Source: Sandaracinus amylolyticus
GTDB taxonomy: Bacteria; Myxococcota_A; Polyangia; Polyangiales; Sandaracinaceae
Direction: 5' to 3'
NCBI RefSeq assembly: GCF_000737325.1
Contig: NZ_CP011125.1
Location: forward strand, 5,642,001 to 5,706,000
Length of the DNA: 64,000 nucleotides
Made by a program: the position numbers and the translations under genes. Positions 16,549 to 53,268 of this stretch are shown in pieces; within the stretch, counting starts at the first letter, position 1, and each line of letters begins with the position of its first letter. The notes beneath the pieces were generated by a model. It saw only the letters and a program-made list of their open reading frames with translations. It ran no database searches and was not told the DNA's origin.

Positions 16549-19500
16549 GTGAGCGAGGGATCGAACGACGTCCGAGGCGCGCGAGAGCTCGACTCCCTCG
16601 CGTTGGTGCAGGCGCTCCCAGGAGGACGCGCGTTGGTGCGCTCGCCGGTCGAGCCCGGCGCGATCGCGTTCGAGCGCGAGAGCGAAGCGATCGAGGAGCT
16701 GCGCCTCTTCCTCGCCGCGACGCTCGCGCGGGCACGCAGCGCGGAGCACGTGGCCCGTCACGCGCTGCCGATCGCGACCACACTGCACGCGGTCCGCGCG
16801 GAGCTGCGCGATCCGTCGCTCCCGCGCCGCATCCAGCGTGCGATCCCGATCGACGTGCCGTGCGTCGTCGTGCCGACCGGCCCCGACCGCGAGGGCGCGC
16901 GTGATGCGTGGCTGCTCTTCCCGACGCTCGCCGCCGCAGGCTGGGTCGCCGCGCACGAGGACGTGGAGGTCGTCGCGAAGCGCGAGGCCGCGCGGCTGCT
17001 CGCCGCGCTCGCCCCGACGCCGGATGCGCGACGCGCGCTGATCGGCGTCGCGGGGCACGCGCTCGAGCCGATGCGCGTGCCGCTCGAGGCGAGCAGCGAC
17101 GCGACGAGCGCCGCCGAGCGCAAGCGCCGCGCGCAGAACGAAGCGCGCAAGCGCGCCGACGATCTGCTGCGCACCGTCGCGCGACCGCTCCATCGCGAGC
17201 TCCCCGAGGACGCACCGCCCGTGCTCGGTCGCGATCGCGAGATCGCGATGCTGACCGCGCTCTGCGCGACGCCGGAGACCGCGCGCGTGGCGATCGTCGG
17301 CGCGCCGCTCGTCGGCAAGAGCGCGGTGGTGCATGCGTGGATCCGCCGCGAGCGCGCGGCGGGGCGGGCGCCGCGCGTGTACCAGACGTCGGCGGCGCAG
17401 CTCGTCGCGGGGATGAGCTTCCTCGGGCAGTGGCAGGAGCGACTGCGCCGTGTGATCGACGCGGCGGAGACGCTCTCCGCGTTCCTCTACTTCGACGATC
17501 TCGGTGACCTCCTCGCCGATCGCGCCGAGGGCAGCGTCGACCTCGTGTCGTCGCTCAAGAGCTGGATCGAGCAGGGGCGACTGCGCTTGCTCGGTGAGCT
17601 CTCGGACGACGCAGCCGATCGGCTGGAGACGCGACAGCCGGGCTTCGCGTCGCTGCTCCACCGCGTGCGCGTCGCCCCGCTCGAGCGTGCGAGCACCGAG
17701 CGCGCGCTCGACGCCGCGGTCGCATGGTCGCGCGCGCACGCCCCGGGCCGCGCCGTGCCCGACGACGCAGGACGCGTCGCGATCCTCGATCTCGCGGAGC
17801 GCTTCCTCCCGTACCAGCCCTTCCCGGGCAAGGCGCTGCGGCTGCTCGATGAGATCCGCGCCGCCGAGGAGTCCGAGGCGCGCGCCGATCGTGCTGCGCC
17901 GATCGACGCGGCGCGGGTGTTCCGCGCGTTCTCGCTCGCGAGCGGCGTGCCCGAGGCGCTGCTGCGCCCGGACCGACGACTCGACGCGAGCGAGCTCCGC
18001 GCGTCGTTCGCAGCGCGCATCGCCGGGCAGGACGAGGCGGTGCGCCGGGTCGTCGACACGCTCTGCGTCGTGAAGGCGGATCTCGCGCCGGGCGACAAGC
18101 CGCTCGCGACGTTCCTCTTCGTCGGACCGACCGGCGTGGGCAAGACCGAGCTCGCGCGCACGCTCGCGGCGCACCTGTTCGGATCGCCGGATCGCCTGCT
18201 GCGGCTCGACATGAGCGAGTACGCCGATCCGAGCGCGGCGATGCGACTGATCGGCGCGGAAGGCGGCGACGGACTGCTCACGCGCGCGGTGCGACAGCAG
18301 CCGTTCTGCGTCGTCCTGCTCGACGAGATCGAGAAGGCGCATCCGTCGGTGTTCGATCTCCTGCTGCAGGTCACGGGCGAGGGTCGGCTCACCGATGGGC
18401 GCGGTCGCATCGCGTACTTCCACGACGCGATCGTCGTGATGACGAGCAACCTCGGCGCGACGCATCGCGCGGCGTCGATCGGCATCGGTGCGCGCGACGT
18501 GCCCGACGACGAGCACTACCTGCGCGCCGTCGAGCGCGCGTTCCGGCCCGAGCTCGTGAACCGCATCGATCGCATCGTGCCGCTGCACCCGCTCGGAACG
18601 ATCGAGATGCGCCAGGTCGTGCGGCTGCTCCTCGCGCGCATCGAGCAGCGGCGCGGCCTCGTCGAGCACGGGATCGCGCTCGTGGTGAGCGACGCCGCCG
18701 CCGATCGTCTCGCGGTCGCGGGGACGAGCGAGCACTACGGCGCGCGCGCGCTGCGACGTCACGTCGAGGACACGCTCGTCGCGCCCGCCGCGCATCTGCT
18801 CGCGCGGCTCGGGGACCGCGCGCGCAACGCGGTGGTGCGCGTGCGGAACGAGGACGAGCCGGCGACGAAGGCGCCACCGCTGGTGCGCGTCGCGATCGAC
18901 GATCTCGTGATCGAGATCGAGCGCGGCGAGGGCCGAACCGGCCGTCGCGACGTCGTCGAGCTCGAGGCGATCACCGAGGTGCGTCGCCGCGCTCAGGCAT
19001 GGCTCGCGGCGCCGGCGTTCACCGACGTGCGCGCGCGCGTCGAGCTGCTCGTCTCCGAGATGTCGTGGGGCGACGTCGACGAGCGCGACCGTCGTCGCGG
19101 GGACGTCCCGGCGCGCGAGATCGGGACGCTGCGCACCGAGCACCATCGCCTCGCCGATCCCAGCGATCGGGTGATCACGCAGATGCGCGAGCTCGAGTCG
19201 ATCGAGGAGCTCGCGCTCACGTCGGTGCTCGCCGGGCGCGGCGCGGAGAGCTTGCTCGCGGACGCGCGAGCGAGCGAGTGGGCGCTGCGGCGCGCGCTGG
19301 GACGCGTGTTCGTCGCGCCGCTCCGCGCGGACTCGATCGTGCTGCTCGTCGAGGAGCGCGGCGGGCGCACGCTCGATCGCTGGCTGCTCCCGCTGCTCGA
19401 CCGCGAGAGCGAGCTCGGATGGGTGGCGCGGCTGCACCTCGAGGGCGATCGCGGCGACGAGTGGCCGGTCACGCGACGCTGGGGGCCGCCGCGCACCATC

Positions 19501-19965
19501 GATCACGCGCGCGAGCGCCTCGCGCGCGACGACCGCGCATCGACGTCGGTGATCCTCGCGGTGCGCGGGCGCGATGCGGGATCGCTCCTCGCGGCCGAAG
19601 CGGGGCTGCACCGCTGGAAGCACGGCGAGCGGCGCGAGCACCTCGCGATCACGGTGCTGCGCACCGAAGGCTCGCTCGACGACGCACACTGGCGCTCGAC
19701 GACGCTCGTGGAGCCGCGTCCTCGCGGTGAGATCCCGGCGCGCGTCGCGACGGTGCGTGACTGGGACCTCCCGACGCGCTCGCTCGCGATCGTCGACGGG
19801 CGCGAGCGGCTCGCGATCGATGCCGCGCACGGCGCGCGCGAGCTCGAGGCGATCGTCTTCGAGCACCTCTGGCGCACGGGTGGAGGTCAGCCTGCCTCCG
19901 CCGTGCGCGGTGTGCTCGACGCGCCGAGCGACGCCGAGACGCTCGACGAGGAGGAGGCGTCGTGA
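16549..19965 (+). CDS. Clp/Hsp100-like double AAA+ ATPase A with PCRF-like C-terminus
   Basis: 1138 residues. Residues 1-230 are a domain unlike Clp_N. AAA-1: P-loop GAPLVGKS (251-258), pore-loop-like GMSFLGQW, Walker B FDDL with Asp317 in place of Glu, and no arginine-finger pair. AAA-2: P-loop GPTGVGKT (526-533), Walker B LLDEIEKAHP (Asp592-Glu593), sensor-1 MTSNLG, NRID and sensor-2 GARALRR, all canonical. The AAA-2 pore loop is shortened and lacks GYVG; SIGI sits where ClpA has its ClpP-docking SIGL. Residues about 800-910 are helical, and about 920-1040 resemble the PCRF domain of release factors (AEAGLHRWK, 1016-1024), with no GGQ. There is no ClpB M-domain. First gene of a coupled three-gene operon. 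Confidence 0.85.
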   Translation: MSEGSNDVRGARELDSLALVQALPGGRALVRSPVEPGAIAFERESEAIEELRLFLAATLARARSAEHVARHALPIATTLHAVRAELRDPSLPRRIQRAIPIDVPCVVVPTGPDREGARDAWLLFPTLAAAGWVAAHEDVEVVAKREAARLLAALAPTPDARRALIGVAGHALEPMRVPLEASSDATSAAERKRRAQNEARKRADDLLRTVARPLHRELPEDAPPVLGRDREIAMLTALCATPETARVAIVGAPLVGKSAVVHAWIRRERAAGRAPRVYQTSAAQLVAGMSFLGQWQERLRRVIDAAETLSAFLYFDDLGDLLADRAEGSVDLVSSLKSWIEQGRLRLLGELSDDAADRLETRQPGFASLLHRVRVAPLERASTERALDAAVAWSRAHAPGRAVPDDAGRVAILDLAERFLPYQPFPGKALRLLDEIRAAEESEARADRAAPIDAARVFRAFSLASGVPEALLRPDRRLDASELRASFAARIAGQDEAVRRVVDTLCVVKADLAPGDKPLATFLFVGPTGVGKTELARTLAAHLFGSPDRLLRLDMSEYADPSAAMRLIGAEGGDGLLTRAVRQQPFCVVLLDEIEKAHPSVFDLLLQVTGEGRLTDGRGRIAYFHDAIVVMTSNLGATHRAASIGIGARDVPDDEHYLRAVERAFRPELVNRIDRIVPLHPLGTIEMRQVVRLLLARIEQRRGLVEHGIALVVSDAAADRLAVAGTSEHYGARALRRHVEDTLVAPAAHLLARLGDRARNAVVRVRNEDEPATKAPPLVRVAIDDLVIEIERGEGRTGRRDVVELEAITEVRRRAQAWLAAPAFTDVRARVELLVSEMSWGDVDERDRRRGDVPAREIGTLRTEHHRLADPSDRVITQMRELESIEELALTSVLAGRGAESLLADARASEWALRRALGRVFVAPLRADSIVLLVEERGGRTLDRWLLPLLDRESELGWVARLHLEGDRGDEWPVTRRWGPPRTIDHARERLARDDRASTSVILAVRGRDAGSLLAAEAGLHRWKHGERREHLAITVLRTEGSLDDAHWRSTTLVEPRPRGEIPARVATVRDWDLPTRSLAIVDGRERLAIDAAHGARELEAIVFEHLWRTGGGQPASAVRGVLDAPSDAETLDEEEAS

Positions 19966-22900
19966 GCCATCGCCTCTCGTTCCGCGTCGCGGTGTACGAA
20001 GTGCGCCACGGCGCGCACTGGGAGTGGACGACGCTGGGCGCTTCGCCGCACGTCGTGACGCGATCGGGCGCGTCCGCGCTCCGCGCGCAGCAGGCGCTCG
20101 TCGAGCGTCTTCGCGCGGTGCTCGAGGGCCTGCCCCCGGTCGAGCTCGCGCGGTTCGAGCCGGCGCGCGGCCTCGAGCTTCGACGCGTTCGCCTCGAGCT
20201 CTCGCTGAACGGCGCGCGCCTCGGTCGTCGCGCGCACGTCGGCGTGCACCCGATCGTGCTCGAGCCGCGATGGGCCACGCCCGCGGATCGCGTGACGCTC
20301 GTCTATCACCCGCTGCGTCAGCACGAGTGGTTCGCGCTCGATCCCGAGCGGCCGCTCGAGGACCAGGCGAGGCTCTTCTTCGCGTCGCGCTGGGCCGATC
20401 TGCGCGACGAGGAGCTCGAGGCGCTCACGACCGACGGCAAGGACTCGATCACCTCGATGTCGTTCTCGACGAAGGTGACGTCGCTGCTCGACGGCATCCC
20501 GGAGCGCGAGCGCGATCCCTTCGCCGATCTCGACCTCGACTCGATGGTCGATCGGCGCGGCACGAAGAAGCGCGGCGGGCTACGCGTGCTGCCGCGCATC
20601 GGCACGAACCTCACGGTGCGCGCGGCGGAGGGCACCCTCGCGATCGGCATGCCGCGCTCGCCGCACCGCGAGCAGCTGCAGCGCCTGATCTGCGCGCCGC
20701 GCAAGCAGTCGACGCTCGTCGTCGGAGCGCCCGGCGTGGGCAAGAGCACGCTCGTCGATCGCGCGATCGTCGATCTCCTCGACGCGGAGGGCTGGTCCGC
20801 GCACCGCAACCTCGATCGCGTCACCGAGGTCTGGTCGATCTCCGCGCGCCGCACGATCGCGGGCATGTCGCACCTCGGCGAGTGGGAGAAGCGCTGCATG
20901 GAGGTGCTCGCGGACTGTCGCGCGCGCCCGGTGGTGCTGCGCGTCGAGGACCTGCACACGTTCGGTCGCGCAGGGCGTCACACGGGCAGCGATCGCAGCT
21001 TCGCCGACGTGTTCCGCGGGCCGCTCGCGCGCGGCGAGATCGTGATGGTCGGCGAGGTGACGCCCGAGCAGCTCCAGCGCCTCGAGGACGACGCGCCGGG
21101 GTTCGCGGAGCTCTTCCAGCGCGTGCTGGTGCACGAGCCGCCGGTCGACGTCGTGCTGCGCATGATGTTCCACGAGGCGCGCCGCCTCGAGCACGAGCGC
21201 CGCGTGCGCTTCGCGCCCCTCGCGTACCGCGCGGTCCTCGATCTCGGCGGAGGGCTCTCGCCGGGACGCGCGTTCCCCGGCAAGGCGCTCGATCTGCTGC
21301 GCGCGGTCGGTCGCGCGCCGGAGCGCCCCGACGATCCGCCGCGCGCGGTCGGTCCGGCCGACGTCGTCGCGGAGCTCGCGCGCCGCACGGGGCTCCCCGC
21401 GTCGTTGGTCCAGCCGGATGTGCCGCTCGAGCCCGAGAGCGTCGAGGCGTTCTTCGCGCGCGACGTGATCGGCCAGCCCGCCGCGGTGCGCGCGGCGGTC
21501 GATCTCGCGATGCGCATCCGTGCCGGGCTCGTCGACCCGCGTCGTCCGTACGGCGTCTACCTCCTCACCGGTCCGACCGGCACCGGCAAGACCGAGCTCG
21601 CGCGCGCGATCGCGCGCTGGCTCTACGGCGGCGAGCAGCGCCTCGTGCGCATCGACATGGGCGAGCTCGGCCATCCCGGCGCGGTCGCACGCCTCATCGG
21701 CAACGCGTGGGACCCCGAGGGCCTGCTCACGCGGCGCGTGCGCGAGCAGCCGTTCTGCGTGGTGCTGCTCGACGAGATCGAGAAAGCGCACCCCGCGGTG
21801 CTGCAGCTCCTGCTGCAGCTGCTCGACGAAGGTCGCCTCACCGATGCCGCGGGCGTCACCGCCGACTTCACGCACACCGTCGTGGTGATGACGTCGAACC
21901 TCGGCGGTCGCACGGGCTCGGCGATCGGGTTCGATCCTTCGATGCAGGGACAGCGGCTCGACGTGCTGCGCGCGGTGCGCGAGTTCTTCCCGCCCGAGCT
22001 CTTCAACCGCATCGATCGCGTCGTGCCGTTCGATCCGCTCTCGCTCGAGGTCGCGGAGCGCGTCGCGGAGAAGGAGCTCTCGAAGCTGCTCGCGCGGCGT
22101 GGGCTCGCCGAGCGCGGCATCTACGTGTTCGCGAACGAGCGCGCCGTGACGCGGATCGCGCACGAGGCGTTCGACGTGAAGGGCGGCGCGCGCTCGGTGA
22201 AGCGCTGGCTCGAGGATCGCGTCGGCTCGTTGCTCGCGGAGGAGATCGCCGGAGGGCCGCGCGGGCGCATGCGGATCGTGCGCCTCGCCTCGGACGCGAG
22301 CGGGTTCAGCGCTCGCACCGATGCGCTGGTCGAGGCGGACCCCGTGCTCGCCGAGCACCCGATGGCCGCGCTCCTCGATCGTCCCGCGATCGAGCTCGAG
22401 CCGCTGCTGCCCGACGTGCTCGACGAGGTGCACGCGCTCGAAGAGCGCGGCGTCCTCGAGGAGCGCACGGGGACGCTGATGCAGCGACGACGCGCGCTCT
22501 CGGGCGAGGCGCGCGCGGATCTCGACGAGGTCCTTCATGCGGTCGAGCGCGTGCGTGATCGGCTCGCGGCGCTGCGCATCCGACTCGAGGGCTCGACCGA
22601 GTCCGAAGAGGACCGCTGGGAGCGATACGAGGACGAGCACGACCTCGCGGCGCCGAGCGTGCGCGCGACGAAGGCGCGACGTCGTCATCACGGTGAGCCG
22701 GGCAAGAGCGGCGACGCGCGGGTGCGCGAGCGCCCGATCGAGCGCGCCCTCGATCGCGCCGGGATGCTCGAGGTGATCACCGAGCGCGACCTGCTGCGTC
22801 GCGCGGTCGTACGCGCCGACGATCCGCGCCAGCACACCGTCGCGATCGAGCTCCTGCGCGTCGGTCGCGCGCGACGTGAGCGCAGCGCGAGCCTGCTCTC

Positions 22901-23423
22901 CGCGCTGCTCGGCGTGTACCTCGCGCCGCCGACCGATCACACCGTGATCGCGGCGCTCGTGCAGGAAGACGCGCGCATCGTGCAGCCGAGCGAGGCGCAG
23001 GGCGCGGATCACGTCGTCGTCGTCGCGAGCGGCCTGTGCATCCTCGATCGCCTCGAAGAAGAGACCGGCTGCCACGTGTGGCACTCGCTCGGCGGACACT
23101 CCGAGGTCGTGCGCGTGGCGATCACGCCGGTGCGCGCGGGCACCGATCCGCGCACGCTGCTCCGCGATCACCTCCACGCGCGACGCGCGTTCGAGCACGC
23201 GCTCGAGTCCGGCGCGTCACCGGTGCCACCGGATCCGACGGCGCTGCTCCCGGTCGTGCGGGTCCTGCGCTTCGATCCCCCGGTGCGCAGCGGTGAGAGC
23301 GCGCTCGCGGAGATCGAGGATCTGCGCCTCGCGTGGGCCGCGGCGTTCGAGGCCCGCGACATGATCACCGCGCTCTCGCGCGCGCTGCCGATCCGCGCGA
23401 GCCGCGAGGAGGCGCAACGATGA
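19962..23423 (+). CDS. Clp/Hsp100-like double AAA+ ATPase B with PCRF-like C-terminus
   Basis: 1153 residues; the GTG start overlaps the stop of gene A (GTGA). The N-terminal 230 residues are beta-rich and resemble the other two N-domains in pattern. AAA-1: P-loop GAPGVGKST (255-263), pore-loop-like GMSHLGEW, Walker B changed to VEDLHTF (Glu-Asp instead of Asp-Glu), no arginine fingers. AAA-2: GPTGTGKT (537-544), Asp604-Glu605 in LLDEIEKAHP, MTSNLGG, NRID and GARSVKR intact; GYVG pore loop absent; AIGF lies at the ClpP-loop position. A charged helical region (about 816-893) precedes a PCRF-like part (about 958-1065) containing ETGCHVWH (1034-1041), close to the ETGVHR of release factors. Probably partners with A and C in one ring or in related rings. 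Confidence 0.85.
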   Translation: MSHRLSFRVAVYEVRHGAHWEWTTLGASPHVVTRSGASALRAQQALVERLRAVLEGLPPVELARFEPARGLELRRVRLELSLNGARLGRRAHVGVHPIVLEPRWATPADRVTLVYHPLRQHEWFALDPERPLEDQARLFFASRWADLRDEELEALTTDGKDSITSMSFSTKVTSLLDGIPERERDPFADLDLDSMVDRRGTKKRGGLRVLPRIGTNLTVRAAEGTLAIGMPRSPHREQLQRLICAPRKQSTLVVGAPGVGKSTLVDRAIVDLLDAEGWSAHRNLDRVTEVWSISARRTIAGMSHLGEWEKRCMEVLADCRARPVVLRVEDLHTFGRAGRHTGSDRSFADVFRGPLARGEIVMVGEVTPEQLQRLEDDAPGFAELFQRVLVHEPPVDVVLRMMFHEARRLEHERRVRFAPLAYRAVLDLGGGLSPGRAFPGKALDLLRAVGRAPERPDDPPRAVGPADVVAELARRTGLPASLVQPDVPLEPESVEAFFARDVIGQPAAVRAAVDLAMRIRAGLVDPRRPYGVYLLTGPTGTGKTELARAIARWLYGGEQRLVRIDMGELGHPGAVARLIGNAWDPEGLLTRRVREQPFCVVLLDEIEKAHPAVLQLLLQLLDEGRLTDAAGVTADFTHTVVVMTSNLGGRTGSAIGFDPSMQGQRLDVLRAVREFFPPELFNRIDRVVPFDPLSLEVAERVAEKELSKLLARRGLAERGIYVFANERAVTRIAHEAFDVKGGARSVKRWLEDRVGSLLAEEIAGGPRGRMRIVRLASDASGFSARTDALVEADPVLAEHPMAALLDRPAIELEPLLPDVLDEVHALEERGVLEERTGTLMQRRRALSGEARADLDEVLHAVERVRDRLAALRIRLEGSTESEEDRWERYEDEHDLAAPSVRATKARRRHHGEPGKSGDARVRERPIERALDRAGMLEVITERDLLRRAVVRADDPRQHTVAIELLRVGRARRERSASLLSALLGVYLAPPTDHTVIAALVQEDARIVQPSEAQGADHVVVVASGLCILDRLEEETGCHVWHSLGGHSEVVRVAITPVRAGTDPRTLLRDHLHARRAFEHALESGASPVPPDPTALLPVVRVLRFDPPVRSGESALAEIEDLRLAWAAAFEARDMITALSRALPIRASREEAQR

Positions 23424-25693
23424 GCCGCAAGACGATGCGCCTCTGGCTCGTGTCGCACGAGGACGGCCGCAAGAGCGGCTACGCGATGCGCAGCTGGGAC
23501 AGCCTCTTCGATCAGCCCGTCCCGAGCGCATACGGCGCGACCGAGGCGGAGGTGCGCGCAGCGATCGAGCGCACGCTCGCAGCCCGCATCGCGTCGGGCG
23601 AGGACACGATCGATCGTTACCTGTGGGACGAGACATTCCACGTGAGCTCGGTGCTCGTCGACGTCGCGCCGCTCTCGTTCGTCGAGAAGCAGCCCGTCGT
23701 CGGCTCGCGCACGATCCCGCTGCGCGTCCGCTACGCGTGGAGCCGCGTCGAGAGCGGCGCGATCCGCGTGATGCTGCCGCGCCTCGGGATGTGGCTCCTG
23801 CTCGAGGATCTCGAAGGCGCGCGCGCCGCGATCCAGCACGTCGTCGCGGGGGGTCTGCTCGGCGCGGCGGGACGCGCGCTCTACGAGCTGCGCGAAGAGC
23901 CCGACGAGGTCGTGCGCGAGTGGGACCCGGAGCTCACGACGCACACCACGACCGCCGAGGACGCCGAGGTGCACCATGCGCCGCCCACGCTGCGCGCGAT
24001 CGCCGAGGATCTCACCGCGCGCGCCACCGCGGGCCGCTTGCCCCAGCTCGTCGGCGACGACCCCACGTTCGACGCGACCGTCCCCGAGCTCGATCGCGAT
24101 CGTCCGCCGTCGCTGCTGCTCGTCGGCGGCGAGGGCGTCGGCAAGACGTCGTTCGTGCAGCGCTTCGCGAAGCGTCTCGCGTCGCAGCGCCGCGGCGGCA
24201 ACAAGCGCGGTCGACCGCGCCTCTGGTCCACGTCGCGCGACCGCATCCTCGCCGGCATGACGTATCTCGGCATGTGGCAGGAGCGCTGTCTCTCGCTCGT
24301 GGAGGAGCTCGCGAGCAGCGGCGATCTGCTGCACGTGGATCGCCTGCTCGCGCTGCTCGAGCGACAGCACGACGGCTCGAGCATCGCCGAGGTGCTCGGC
24401 CCCGCGATCGTCGCCGGCGAGATCCGCGTCGTCGCGGAGTGCACCGAGAGCGAGCTCGAGGAGTGCCGGCGTCGCGCCGGCGCGCTCGTCGACGCGTTCC
24501 GCGTGGTGCGCATCGACGAGCCCTCGCGGGACGCGATGCCTGCGTTCCTCTCGCTCTACCAGCAGCGCGTCCGCGGGCCCGCGTTCCATCCCGAGGCGTG
24601 GAAGCGCCTCGTGCGTCACCTCGACGCGTACCAGCGTCACCAGCGCTTTCCGGGCAAGGGCGTGCGCTTCCTCGACTGGATGGCGCGCCACACCGCGTCG
24701 ACCGAGAGCACCGCGACGCGCGTGTACCCCAGCGACGTCTCGCGCGCGTTCGCGCGCTTCTCCGGGCTTCCGCTCGAGCTGCTCGACGACGACGTCGCGT
24801 TCGGCTCCGCGAAGATCGCCGGCGCGCTGCGCGCGCGCGTGATCGGTCAGGACGACGCGTGCGCGACCGCGGCGCGCGTCCTCGCGCGCTTCAAGGCCGG
24901 GATGAACGATCCCGAGCGCCCGCTCGGATCACTCCTGTTCGTCGGATCCACCGGCGTCGGCAAGACCGAGCTCGCGAAGCAGATCGCGCGGTTCCTCTTC
25001 GGATCCGAGGAACGGATGATCCGCGTCGACATGAGCGAGTACCTCGCGCCCGGATCGGCGCCGCGCCTGCTCGCGTCGACGCCCGGCGCGAGCAGCCTCG
25101 CCGATCGCGTGCGCAAGGAGCCGCTCTCGCTCGTGCTGCTCGACGAGATCGAGAAGGCGCACCCCGAGGTGTTCGATCTGCTGCTCGGCGTGCTCGGGGA
25201 AGGCCGTCTCACCGACTCGCTCGGGCGGCTCGTCGACTTCCGCATGAGCCTCGTCGTGATGACGTCGAACCTCGGCGCGTCCGAGCCCGTCGCGCCCGGC
25301 TTCGGCGCCGCGCTCGAGCCCGACTTCGAGCGCGCGGTGCGCAGCGCGTTCCGCCCCGAGCTCTTCAACCGCATCGATCGCGTCGTGCGCTTCCGGAACC
25401 TCGCGCACGACGACCTGCTGCGCATCGTCGATCTCGAGCTCGCGTCGGCGGCGAAGCGCACGGGGCTGGTGCGGCGCGCGATCACGCTCGACGTCGACGC
25501 TGACGCTCGCACACGCCTCGCCGAGCTCGGCTGGCATCGCGCGCGCGGCGCGCGCCCGCTCCGGCGCGTGATCGAGGAGCGCGTGGTCACGCCCATCGCG
25601 GTGCTGCTCGCGGGGGCGCCCGAGCTCCGCGATCGCACGATGCGCGTGCGCGCCGAGCGCGGCGAGATCACCGTCGCGCTCGGCGCGTCCTGA
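23420..25693 (+). CDS. Clp/Hsp100-like double AAA+ ATPase C, without PCRF-like tail
   Basis: 757 residues; the ATG overlaps the stop of gene B (ATGA). The N-terminal 210 residues carry IPLRVRYAW and RLGMWLLLEDLEGAR, matching the pattern in A and B. AAA-1: GGEGVGKT (236-243), pore-loop-like GMTYLGMW, Walker B HVDRLLAL with Arg in place of the catalytic Glu, no arginine fingers. AAA-2: GSTGVGKT (509-516), Asp575-Glu576 in LLDEIEKAHP, MTSNLGA, NRID and GARPLRR; pore loop without GYVG; PGF near the ClpP-loop position. The chain ends after the AAA-2 small domain. It shares the most architecture with the core of A and B and closes the operon; a convergent lipoprotein gene follows after 3 bases. Confidence 0.85.
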   Translation: MSRKTMRLWLVSHEDGRKSGYAMRSWDSLFDQPVPSAYGATEAEVRAAIERTLAARIASGEDTIDRYLWDETFHVSSVLVDVAPLSFVEKQPVVGSRTIPLRVRYAWSRVESGAIRVMLPRLGMWLLLEDLEGARAAIQHVVAGGLLGAAGRALYELREEPDEVVREWDPELTTHTTTAEDAEVHHAPPTLRAIAEDLTARATAGRLPQLVGDDPTFDATVPELDRDRPPSLLLVGGEGVGKTSFVQRFAKRLASQRRGGNKRGRPRLWSTSRDRILAGMTYLGMWQERCLSLVEELASSGDLLHVDRLLALLERQHDGSSIAEVLGPAIVAGEIRVVAECTESELEECRRRAGALVDAFRVVRIDEPSRDAMPAFLSLYQQRVRGPAFHPEAWKRLVRHLDAYQRHQRFPGKGVRFLDWMARHTASTESTATRVYPSDVSRAFARFSGLPLELLDDDVAFGSAKIAGALRARVIGQDDACATAARVLARFKAGMNDPERPLGSLLFVGSTGVGKTELAKQIARFLFGSEERMIRVDMSEYLAPGSAPRLLASTPGASSLADRVRKEPLSLVLLDEIEKAHPEVFDLLLGVLGEGRLTDSLGRLVDFRMSLVVMTSNLGASEPVAPGFGAALEPDFERAVRSAFRPELFNRIDRVVRFRNLAHDDLLRIVDLELASAAKRTGLVRRAITLDVDADARTRLAELGWHRARGARPLRRVIEERVVTPIAVLLAGAPELRDRTMRVRAERGEITVALGAS

Positions 25694-50623: not shown

Positions 50624-51394
50624 ATGGATCTGCACGGTTCGGTCGCACTGGTCACGGGCGGCGCGTCGGGGCTCGGACGCGCCACGGTGGAGGCGCTCGC
50701 AGCGCGCGGCGCGACGGTCGCGATCGTCGATCGCGACGCCGATCGCGCGAAGGCGCTCGCCACGTCGATCGGCGGTGATCGCGCGTTCGCCGCGCCCGCC
50801 GACGTCGCAGACGGCGCCGCGATGAGCGCGGTGATCGACGGCGCCGCGTCGCGCGGTCCGCTCCGCGTCGCGGTCGCGTGCGCCGGTGTCGGCTGGGCCG
50901 CGCGCACCGTCGACAAGGACGGCAAGCCGCACGACCTCGACCTCTTCCGCAAGGTCATCGACGTGAACCTCGTCGGCACGTTCAACGTGCTGCGCCTCGC
51001 CGCCGCCGCGATGGCGAAGGCCACGCCGCTGCCCGACGGACAACGCGGCGTCATCATCGGCACCGCGTCGGTCGCGGCGTTCGAAGGACAGATCGGTCAG
51101 GTCGCGTACAGCGCGAGCAAGGGCGCGGTCGTCGCGATGACTCTGCCGGCCGCGCGCGACCTCGCGAAGGTCGGCGTGCGCGTGATGACCATCGCGCCCG
51201 GCACGTTCGACACGCCGATGCTCGCGGCGCTGCCCGAAGAAGCGCGCAAGTCGCTCGCCGCAGCGATCCCGAACCCCTCGCGCCTCGGCGATCCCACCGA
51301 GTACGCGCGCCTCGCGCTGAGCATCGTCGACAACGCGTACCTCAACGGCACGGTCATCCGCATCGACGGCGCGCTGCGCATGGCACCCAAGTGA
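50624..51394 (+). CDS. Short-chain dehydrogenase/reductase (3-hydroxyacyl-CoA dehydrogenase type)
   Basis: 256 residues, classical SDR. NAD(H)-binding TGGASGLG (11-18) and Asp at the end of the second strand (VDRDADR), favouring NAD. Catalytic Ser-Tyr-Lys in IGTASVAAFEG and AYSASKGA. The sequence resembles type-2 3-hydroxyacyl-CoA dehydrogenases (HSD17B10-like). It overlaps the LplT-PlsC fusion in a GTGA, which suggests a lipid link. TTAGAT 7 bases before the ATG suggests a leaderless message. Confidence 0.85.
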   Translation: MDLHGSVALVTGGASGLGRATVEALAARGATVAIVDRDADRAKALATSIGGDRAFAAPADVADGAAMSAVIDGAASRGPLRVAVACAGVGWAARTVDKDGKPHDLDLFRKVIDVNLVGTFNVLRLAAAAMAKATPLPDGQRGVIIGTASVAAFEGQIGQVAYSASKGAVVAMTLPAARDLAKVGVRVMTIAPGTFDTPMLAALPEEARKSLAAAIPNPSRLGDPTEYARLALSIVDNAYLNGTVIRIDGALRMAPK

Positions 51395-53268
51395 GCCAGT
51401 CCCGCCTGCTCGCCGAGAAGCGCTTCGCGCCCTTCTTCTGGACCCAGTTCCTCGGCGCGTTCAACGACAACGTCTTCAAGAACGCGCTCGTCATCCTCTT
51501 CACGCTCACGCCACCGAGCGACGTCTCGCTCTCGCGCGACGCCCTCGTGAACCTCGCGAGCGGCCTGCTCATCCTGCCCTTCTTCATCTTCTCCGCGACG
51601 GCCGGTCAGCTCGCCGAGAAGATGGAGAAGTCGCGCCTCGTGCGCTGGACGAAGCTCATGGAGATCGCGGTGATGATCGTCGCCGCGTTCGCGCTCTTCT
51701 CGGGCAGCGCGATCCTCCTGCTCGCCCTGCTCTTCATGCTCGGGCTGCAGAGCGCGATCTTCGGGCCGGTGAAGTTCGCGATCCTGCCCTCCGTGCTGCG
51801 CGAGGACGAGCTCGTCGGCGGCAACGGCCTCGTCGAGATGGGCACGTACGTCGCGATCCTCGGCGGCACGATGCTCGGCGGCGTGCTCGTCGCGCAGGCG
51901 GGCTGGGGCGTGCACGCCGTCGCGATCACGATCGTCGTCGTCGCGGTCGCGGGCTACGTCGCGAGCCGTGGCGTGCCCCAGGTCCCGTCGGCGATGCCGG
52001 GCCTGCGCATCGATCCGAACGTGCTCGTCCAGACCTGGCGCGTCATCGGGTACGCGCGCGAGAACCGCGCGGTCTGGCTCTCGGTGCTCGGCAACTCGTG
52101 GTTCTGGTTCGTCGGCGCGCTCTTCCTCGCGCAGCTCCCGGGCTTCGTCGAGGACGTGCTCCATGGCTCGCCCGAGGTCGTCACGCTCCTGCTCATCGTC
52201 TTCTCGCTCGGCGTCGGCATCGGCTCGCTGCTCTGCGAGCGCCTCAGCGGGCGCGTGATCGAGCTCGGCCTCGTCCCCTTCGGATCGATCGGCATCACGT
52301 TCTTCGCGATCGATCTCTTCCTCGCGAGCGAGTGGCACGTCGCGCCCGCCGTCGTCGAAGGCCCCTTCGCCGTGCTCGCCGACTCGAGCAACTGGCGCAT
52401 CCTCATGGACCTCGCGCTGCTCGGCGTGTTCGGCGGCTTCTACAGCGTGCCGCTCAACGCGATGATCCAGCACCGCAGCGACCCGACGAAGCGCTCGCGC
52501 ATCATCGCCGCGAACAACATCGTCAACGCGATCTTCATCGTCGGCGCGGCCGGCGTCGCGATCGTGCTGCTCGGCCTCGGCCTCACGATCCCCCAGCTCT
52601 TCCTCGCCGCGGGCGTGATGAACGCGCTCGTCGCGCTCTACATCTACACGCTGCTGCCGGAGTTCCTCTTCCGGTTCCTCGTCTGGCTGCTGATGCACAC
52701 GATGTATCGGCTCCGCGTGAAGGGCGTCGAGAAGCTCCCGAGCGAAGGCCCCGCGCTGCTCGTGTGCAACCACGTCGCGTACGTCGATGCGCTCATCCTC
52801 GCGGCCGCGTCGTCGCGCCCGATCCGCTTCGTGATGTGGTGGAAGATCTTCGAGATCCCCCTGCTCAAGTGGATGTTCGGCATCGCGCGCGCGATCCCGA
52901 TCGCGGGCCGCAAAGAGAAGCCCGAGCTCGTCGAAAAGGCGTTCGCCGAGATCGATCGCGCGCTCGCCGAGGGCGAGCTCGTCTGCATCTTCCCCGAGGG
53001 CGCGCTCACGTACACGGGCGAGCTCTCGCCGTTCCGCCCGGGCGTCGAGCGCATCGTCGCGAGCACGCCCGTGCCCGTCTTCCCGATGGCGCTCAAGGGC
53101 CTCTGGGGCAGCTGGTTCAGCCGCCGCGGCGGTCCTGCGATGGCGAAGCGCCCGCGCCGCTTCCGCTCGCAGATCGAGCTCGAGGTCGGCGACGCGATCG
53201 CGCCCGCCGACGCGACCGCGGAGCGCCTGCAGCACGCGGTGCAGACCCTCCGCGGCGACGCGCGGTAG
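51391..53268 (+). CDS. MFS lysophospholipid transporter-acyltransferase fusion (LplT-PlsC-like)
   Basis: 625 residues. Residues 1-about 425 are a 12-helix MFS domain of the LplT type (FLGAFNDNVFKNA at about 18-30); about 440-625 form a PlsC-like acyltransferase with NHVAYVD (HX4D), the glycerolipid motif and FPEGAL. E. coli Aas and the LplT transporter do the same job, with Aas adding an acyl-ACP ligase; here there is no AMP-ligase domain. It probably imports lysophospholipid across the inner membrane and re-acylates it with an acyl donor. Coupled to the SDR gene. Confidence 0.85.
   Translation: MSQSRLLAEKRFAPFFWTQFLGAFNDNVFKNALVILFTLTPPSDVSLSRDALVNLASGLLILPFFIFSATAGQLAEKMEKSRLVRWTKLMEIAVMIVAAFALFSGSAILLLALLFMLGLQSAIFGPVKFAILPSVLREDELVGGNGLVEMGTYVAILGGTMLGGVLVAQAGWGVHAVAITIVVVAVAGYVASRGVPQVPSAMPGLRIDPNVLVQTWRVIGYARENRAVWLSVLGNSWFWFVGALFLAQLPGFVEDVLHGSPEVVTLLLIVFSLGVGIGSLLCERLSGRVIELGLVPFGSIGITFFAIDLFLASEWHVAPAVVEGPFAVLADSSNWRILMDLALLGVFGGFYSVPLNAMIQHRSDPTKRSRIIAANNIVNAIFIVGAAGVAIVLLGLGLTIPQLFLAAGVMNALVALYIYTLLPEFLFRFLVWLLMHTMYRLRVKGVEKLPSEGPALLVCNHVAYVDALILAAASSRPIRFVMWWKIFEIPLLKWMFGIARAIPIAGRKEKPELVEKAFAEIDRALAEGELVCIFPEGALTYTGELSPFRPGVERIVASTPVPVFPMALKGLWGSWFSRRGGPAMAKRPRRFRSQIELEVGDAIAPADATAERLQHAVQTLRGDAR

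Follow-up and report, generated by a model that had tools for sequence, protein, structure and literature searches.

The A-B-C locus

Examination of a stretch of 64,000 nucleotides of Sandaracinus amylolyticus DNA (contig NZ_CP011125.1; hereafter the window) revealed three adjacent genes, A, B and C, each coding for an Hsp100/Clp-like ATPase (Table 1). All three are open frames with coding codon usage, like that of the surrounding genes, and in each product the second AAA+ module (D2) is strongly recognized (Pfam AAA_2 and ClpB_D2-small) and the first (D1) weakly. The frames, the codon signature and Pfam bear out an earlier reading of the sequence alone (the sequence-only reading), which had described three genes of these lengths, each with two AAA+ modules. 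The longest open frame of C begins at 23333, and its start in the overlap is the ATG at 23420. The GTGA and ATGA overlaps, likewise claimed in that reading, are present here and conserved in relatives: the A/B and B/C junctions in seven genomes (G000, G002, G007, G008, G015, G016 and G022) all overlap, by 1, 4 or 8 bases, and 4-base overlaps are found again in distant phyla; hence, the overlaps are not due to chance. A scan for sigma-70 promoters and terminators was uninformative in this GC-rich DNA.

Elsewhere in the window, a single frame (50878-53268) fuses a major facilitator transporter with an acyltransferase domain. Between 5300 and 11600 long frames overlap on both strands, and the codon-based gene call assigned little of that stretch.

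Table 1. Features of the A-B-C locus (coordinates refer to the window)
Feature	Coordinates	Strand	Remarks
Gene A	16549..19965	+	GTG start, 1138 aa; N-domain followed by a degenerate D1, an apparently active D2 lacking pore loop 1, and an extension at the C-terminus that resembles release factors
A N-terminal domain	16549..17163	+	Homologous to those of B (hhalign E 4.8e-8) and C (E 4.1e-6)
A D1 Walker A (GAPLVGKS)	17299..17322	+	D1 Walker B acidic pair and ARRF arginine finger degenerate
A D2 Walker A (GPTGVGKT)	18124..18147	+	Walker B LLDEIEKAH at 18316, NRID at 18559, GAR sensor 2 at 18739
A D2 pore-loop-1 site, PPGYVG deleted (RLIGAEGGDGLLT)	18244..18282	+	
A C-terminal extension	18871..19962	+	Resembles release factors by profile; E-x-G-x-H-R at 19597; GGQ domain and PxT/SPF loop both absent
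A/B overlap GTGA	19962..19965	+	4 bases
Gene B	19962..23423	+	GTG start, 1153 aa; architecture as in A
B N-terminal domain	19974..20591	+	Related to that of A and, through A, to that of C
B D2 pore-loop-1 site, PPGYVG deleted (RLIGNAWDPEGLLT)	21690..21731	+	
B C-terminal extension (region modelled)	22236..23420	+	Predicted release-factor-like fold; E-x-G-x-H at 23061
B/C overlap ATGA	23420..23423	+	4 bases
Gene C	23420..25693	+	ATG start, 757 aa; N-domain, D1, D2, without C-terminal extension
C N-terminal domain	23420..23959	+	
C D2 pore-loop-1 site, PPGYVG deleted (RLLASTPGASSLAD)	25064..25105	+	

Relationship to named families and phylogeny

The best NCBIfam matches of A, B and C are ClpB (TIGR03346; 298-333 bits against a cut-off of 1232), ClpA (TIGR02639; 294-302 against 993) and ClpV (TIGR03345; 235-269 against 885), i.e. 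at about 1/4 to 1/3 of the respective cut-offs, and Clp_N (PF02861) is not among the Pfam matches listed for the three proteins. Profile comparison with the named Clp models, suggested in the sequence-only reading as a check, therefore places them in no named family. In PADLOC, A, B and C match DolB (Dodola) and PDC-M37B at 55-89 bits, over a generic Clp-like D2 stretch only; as no named defence ATPase was matched over the greater part of its length, membership in a known anti-phage defence system was rejected.

Phylogenetic trees were computed from 92 rows (quick) and 53 rows (careful, LG+C20), and in both the canonical Clp proteins are separated from all the new proteins by a fully supported branch (100/100). 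The surmise that the three proteins might fall in one unnamed clade is thus upheld, with A, B and C as lineages within it. B groups with the divergent forms B' and B'' in one clade (99/97), and moderate support unites A with A' (83/94) and C with C' (88/93). A'' and C'' each form a well-supported clade of their own, and the trees give no support for uniting these with A and C. In the loci L158-L163, A', B' and C' are best matched by the A, B and C models respectively, by modest margins (1 bit for B' in L158). Single-gene relatives (L028:6475-9822, L030:1577-4435 and L092:8274-10988) are basal and carry a C-terminal PCRF region above the Pfam cut-off with no GGQ domain. Another basal protein lacking the D2 pore loop (L101:6225-8927, genome G308) has N-terminal HEAT repeats and no release-factor tail.

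The D1 and D2 motor modules

The D2 modules of the A, B and C classes retain Walker A (GPTGxGKT), a LLDEIEKAH-like Walker B, sensor 1, the NR-D arginine finger and the GAR sensor 2. The PPGYVG pore loop of D2 is present in none of the core sequences of the clade, as against 14 of 14 canonical proteins. In D1, Walker A is kept in nearly all members, and the Walker B glutamate and the ARRF finger are gone. The D1 pore loop has a class-specific form (GMSGLGQWQ in A, GMS(Y/H)(V/L)GDWE in B and GMxYLGMWQ in C), and its aromatic residue is retained in most B and C proteins. Accordingly, the description of A, B and C as Clp-like ATPases with two AAA+ modules stands, but they are not ordinary double-ring Clp translocases, given that the hydrolysis motifs of D1 and the gripping loop of D2 are lost. 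Judging from these motifs, D2 very probably hydrolyzes ATP and D1 very probably does not. Deletion of the D2 gripping loop speaks against processive threading of the kind seen in ClpA and ClpB, and we consider it rather likely that classical threading does not take place, though the D1 aromatic residue of most B and C proteins means that D1 might still accomplish some.

After sensor 1 of D2, at the position that in ClpA mediates ClpP docking, most A, B and C class proteins have an (I/V/L)GF-type tripeptide, (I/V/L)G(F/L). It is missing in the ClpB- and ClpV-type rows, and in several A proteins it is replaced by IGI or absent altogether. ClpP is encoded in nearly all genomes that carry A, B and C, and by eye no link was seen between its copy number and the triplet.

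Release-factor-like C-terminal extensions of A and B

A and B share a homologous extension at their C-terminus (hhalign E 2.9e-8), which had been missed in the sequence-only reading; its nature was recognized by fold for B and by profile for A. Sequence searches with the B extension against Pfam and the PDB recovered nothing, and its relationship to release factors is visible only in structural and profile-profile comparisons. An AlphaFold2 model of this extension from 37 sequences (pLDDT 88.9, pTM 0.86) was used in a Foldseek search of the PDB, which at E <= 0.001 gave 28 matches, every one of them a class I release factor (RF1, RF2 or mtRF1; best E 2.8e-6). VIA-align superimposed it on E. 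coli RF2 (1gqe) with Z 12.9 over 246 residues, and its best rows are release factors almost without exception. In hhalign comparisons with a profile of genuine RF1/RF2 proteins from these genomes, the A extension matched with E 8.3e-10 over 242 columns, the A'' extension with E 4.2e-13 and the B extension with E 1.9e-5, and the N-terminal domains, used as a negative control, did not match. With the B and B'' class profiles, which comprise fewer sequences, the match is not significant by sequence, so that B is assigned chiefly by structure and by its homology to A. A whole-genome search with Pfam PCRF, meant to collect genuine release factors, also matched two single-gene members of the clade (G008:C408 and G004:C390); these and L092 (63 bits) exceed the Pfam cut-off, at a position equivalent to the extension. 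The extensions of A and B are predicted to assume the fold of domains 1 and 2/4 of a class I release factor, from the model in the case of B and from profiles only in that of A.

C is devoid of such an extension except in some C'' members: C'' tails of 180-271 residues (L097:12148-15216 and L099:13525-16605) match the release-factor-like extension of A. Given these matches, C may have lost the extension secondarily.

The elements by which a release factor decodes and hydrolyzes are gone. The GGQ domain (Pfam RF-1) has no match in A, B or C, nor among the listed matches of the single-gene relatives, and GGQ strings are scattered in four tails only. No PxT/SPF codon loop follows the E-x-G-x-H(R) motif, and that stretch is shortened. 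The motif itself is kept in 15 of 17 A, all six A', all 13 A'' and 18 of 19 B proteins; it is found in 4 of the 13 B'' proteins and is less well kept in B' too. The stop-codon-stacking histidine of RF2 lies after the SPF loop, in the part that is missing here; an equation of it with the histidine of E-x-G-x-H was considered and dropped. In RF2 the SPF loop corresponds to residues 205-207 (PMC5378476).

The N-terminal domains

The N-terminal domains of B and C, each related to that of A, match weakly in a direct hhalign comparison (E 0.0056). A model of the B domain (19974-20687) gave no Foldseek match at E <= 0.001, and its VIA-align similarity to the HicB antitoxin (Z 8.3), along with weaker matches to double-stranded RNA-binding domains, is borderline, at the level of chance arrangements. 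As a lead only, the model points to a possible RNA-binding fold.

Joint inheritance, gene order and spread

For each of A, B and C, an orthologue alignment served to search one common set of 183 Polyangiales genomes. A gap in scores separates the orthologues in each case (A at least 934 bits, next 531; B 619 and 587; C 612 and 486), and is narrowest for B, whose lowest rows are fragments at contig ends. A is present in 42 of the 183 genomes, B in 42 and C in 40, with all three in 38. The exceptions are incomplete assemblies (G044, 64% complete; G118, 84% complete) or involve contig edges (G009, G015, G053 and G128). Fisher p-values for the co-occurrences range from 1e-38 to 3e-32, and ignore the relatedness of the genomes. 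When gene trees of A, B and C from 26 sets are compared, 16, 17 and 19 of 23 splits coincide, as compared to at most 3 in 2000 shuffles; these mirrored trees are evidence for joint inheritance and not proof of contact, as shared species history contributes to them. Since the genomes are related, both co-occurrence and mirrored trees overstate independence. Joint inheritance strongly supports the view that A, B and C constitute one obligate three-part system.

In Polyangiales genomes with the set, the usual arrangement is A-B-C on one strand, and this order is at times broken up. C lies away from a neighbouring A and B in G174, G176 and G178 and on a different contig in G042, and in G043 and G045 it is A that has moved away from B-C. 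The homologues in G037 and G032, where the three genes are all apart, are not solo proteins, as each of the two genomes carries a single A'', B'' and C'' far from one another. In G176 (L079:6457-14973 and L082:8636-11251), where C is far from A-B, a reading frame of 328 codons lies between A and B. In G119 (L087 and L091) a type-1 A-B-C set, spread over three contigs, coexists with a second array, A''-B''-C''.

The sole cross-phylum scan, of GTDB species genomes with two B-specific patterns, recovered the set from Archangium, Hyalangium, Sorangium, Minicystis, Nannocystaceae, Kofleriaceae and a Thermoanaerobaculia MAG (Acidobacteriota). The same order is found in triplets that have diverged further, in Sulfidibacter corallicola (Acidobacteriota), Verrucomicrobiota MAGs and other Myxococcota families. 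One of the Verrucomicrobiota MAGs is labelled Akkermansia muciniphila (contig L161), and this organism label is doubtful. The triplet is thus not peculiar to its host genome; absence elsewhere would, according to the sequence-only reading, have counted against it. Of the two phyla in which that reading proposed to look for a conserved order, Myxococcota shows it, as do Acidobacteriota and Verrucomicrobiota, and Planctomycetota gave no match with the two B-specific patterns.

No fourth conserved gene accompanies the triplet, as flanks are not conserved past close relatives or the genus. Recurring clusters in the flanks consist of abundant Ser/Thr kinases or reflect synteny between close genera; the response regulator and hybrid kinase found downstream in the window are common to G002 only. 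The flanking genes give no pointer to translation.

Functional implications

In light of these observations, we propose that A, B and C are obligate subunits of a single Hsp100-derived, D2-powered and non-threading machine, which its release-factor-like domains would target to the ribosome or a translation complex, and we hold this composite reading to be slightly short of evenly balanced. Inheritance as a set, unlike the equal production from which the sequence-only reading had argued for a hetero-oligomeric ring or linked rings, is visible in sequence and fits a single hetero-oligomeric machine; A, B and C would quite probably assemble into a mixed, probably hexameric ring. In this ring the D1 modules would bind nucleotide and hold the subunits together without hydrolyzing ATP, and the D2 modules of all three subunits would carry out the hydrolysis. 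The ring might then change shape and thereby remodel or dissociate a bound assembly, with no processive threading. The extensions of A and B, which retain neither the GGQ hydrolase domain nor the stop-codon loop, could act as targeting modules, and their likeliest target would be the normal binding place of release factor domains 1/2/4, namely the ribosome or a translation complex. RF2 touches the L11 stalk with its domain 1 and reaches the decoding centre with domain 2 (PMC5378476), and in view of these contacts a dead release factor could serve as a docking module. Targeting to ribosomes or translation complexes is nonetheless a tentative assignment, and less likely than not. Somewhat more doubtful still is a specific role in which the ring, docked via the catalytically dead release factor domains of A and B, would draw on ATP hydrolysis by D2 to act, without threading, on stalled or idle ribosomes, which it would remodel, rescue or take apart.

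Just as likely as ribosome targeting is exaptation of the release-factor-like domain as a structural scaffold, with the machine acting on a non-ribosomal target. Absence of the decoding loop and the GGQ hydrolase domain, poor retention of E-x-G-x-H in B'' (and B') and the weak sequence match of B-type extensions to release factors suggest that the domain may have no ribosomal role; the lack of such a domain in C and of a translation theme among the neighbouring genes agrees with this. Less expected of a mere scaffold are the retention of the fold across a very wide range of lineages and of a PCRF region above the Pfam cut-off in the single-gene relatives.

Retention of the (I/V/L)GF-type loop in most A, B and C proteins keeps open a further reading, which we think improbable: a three-subunit ClpP-dependent unfoldase that docks via these loops and whose release-factor-like domain selects substrates, such as nascent chains or ribosomal proteins. 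ClpA docks to ClpP by such a motif, and ClpB/Hsp104 is without it (PMC5540906), the same contrast as that seen between A, B and C and the ClpB/ClpV-type rows; the near-universal presence of ClpP in these genomes is likewise in its favour. Nevertheless, no member retains D2 pore loop 1, which is required for feeding substrates to ClpP, the number of ClpP copies does not appear to follow the triplet, the motif is altered or absent in several A proteins, and the large extensions come after the D2 small domain, where they might block docking.

If A, B and C each formed a homo-hexameric machine of its own, with related jobs and joint transcription only for the sake of co-regulation, this would accord with the complete D2 active site of each protein and with the homo-hexameric state usual among Clp proteins, but all-or-none presence despite dispersal of the genes, and mirrored trees, are not expected of independently useful machines, and this alternative appears a shade less probable than the ClpP-linked one. 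That A, B and C are ordinary ClpA, ClpB or ClpV paralogues with known functions can be dismissed with near certainty in spite of their best NCBIfam matches, because tree and motifs already contradict it: the cut-offs are far from reached, Clp_N is not among the listed Pfam matches, the D2 pore loop is absent, and the three proteins lie in their own clade with the host genome's canonical Clp paralogues outside it.

Comparison with known systems

Hsp100/Clp proteins of bacteria normally work as homo-hexamers that thread their substrates. A, B and C derive from Hsp100/Clp, and their composition, lost pore loop and release-factor-like domain set them apart from every named family tested. Their lineage diverges deeply and crosses phyla; it appears to require three different subunits, no longer has the gripping loop in its working ring and combines an unfoldase with the fold of a release factor. 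In the open-licence text in PMC we found no description of the triplet or of an Hsp100-release factor fusion, and earlier work may exist.

With ClpA, ClpC and ClpB the proteins share two AAA+ modules per chain and a ClpB/AAA_2-type D2 with its small domain, as well as, with ClpA and ClpC, the (I/V)GF-type loop; they differ in being three obligate paralogues, in the loss of the D1 hydrolysis motifs and D2 pore loop 1, in their N-terminal domain and in the extensions of A and B. Their resemblance to DolB (Dodola) and PDC-M37B is confined to the generic Clp-like D2 module; D1, the N-terminal domain and the release-factor-like region are unmatched, and these are different proteins. RF1/RF2 and PrfH share with the extensions the fold, a helical domain 1 with superdomain 2/4, and the E-x-G-x-H motif, whereas the extensions are without GGQ domain 3 and the PxT/SPF codon loop and are fused to an Hsp100-like ATPase.

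Torsins offer a parallel as Hsp100-derived D2-type ATPases without aromatic pore loops, for which it has been argued that they do not thread substrates (PMC5425593); however, torsins have one AAA+ module and obtain their arginine finger from LAP1/LULL1, whereas A, B and C all retain their own D2 finger. Pex1/Pex6, in which the hydrolysis motifs of D1 are lost and D2 is active (PMC9265785), is a heteromeric type II AAA+ complex, as we suppose A/B/C to be, that likewise keeps the D1 Walker A and has lost Walker B and the arginine finger. It differs in having two subunits, in belonging to the classical AAA clade, in keeping its D2 pore loops and in the absence of a release-factor-like domain. If the parts of A, B and C act as they look, they would represent a bacterial Hsp100 built for action on the translation machinery, to which the eukaryotic partnership of Cdc48 with the release-factor-like Vms1 provides a loose parallel (PMC6514570). 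More generally, they make it possible to study in a natural setting the workings of an Hsp100 ring that has no D2 pore loop.
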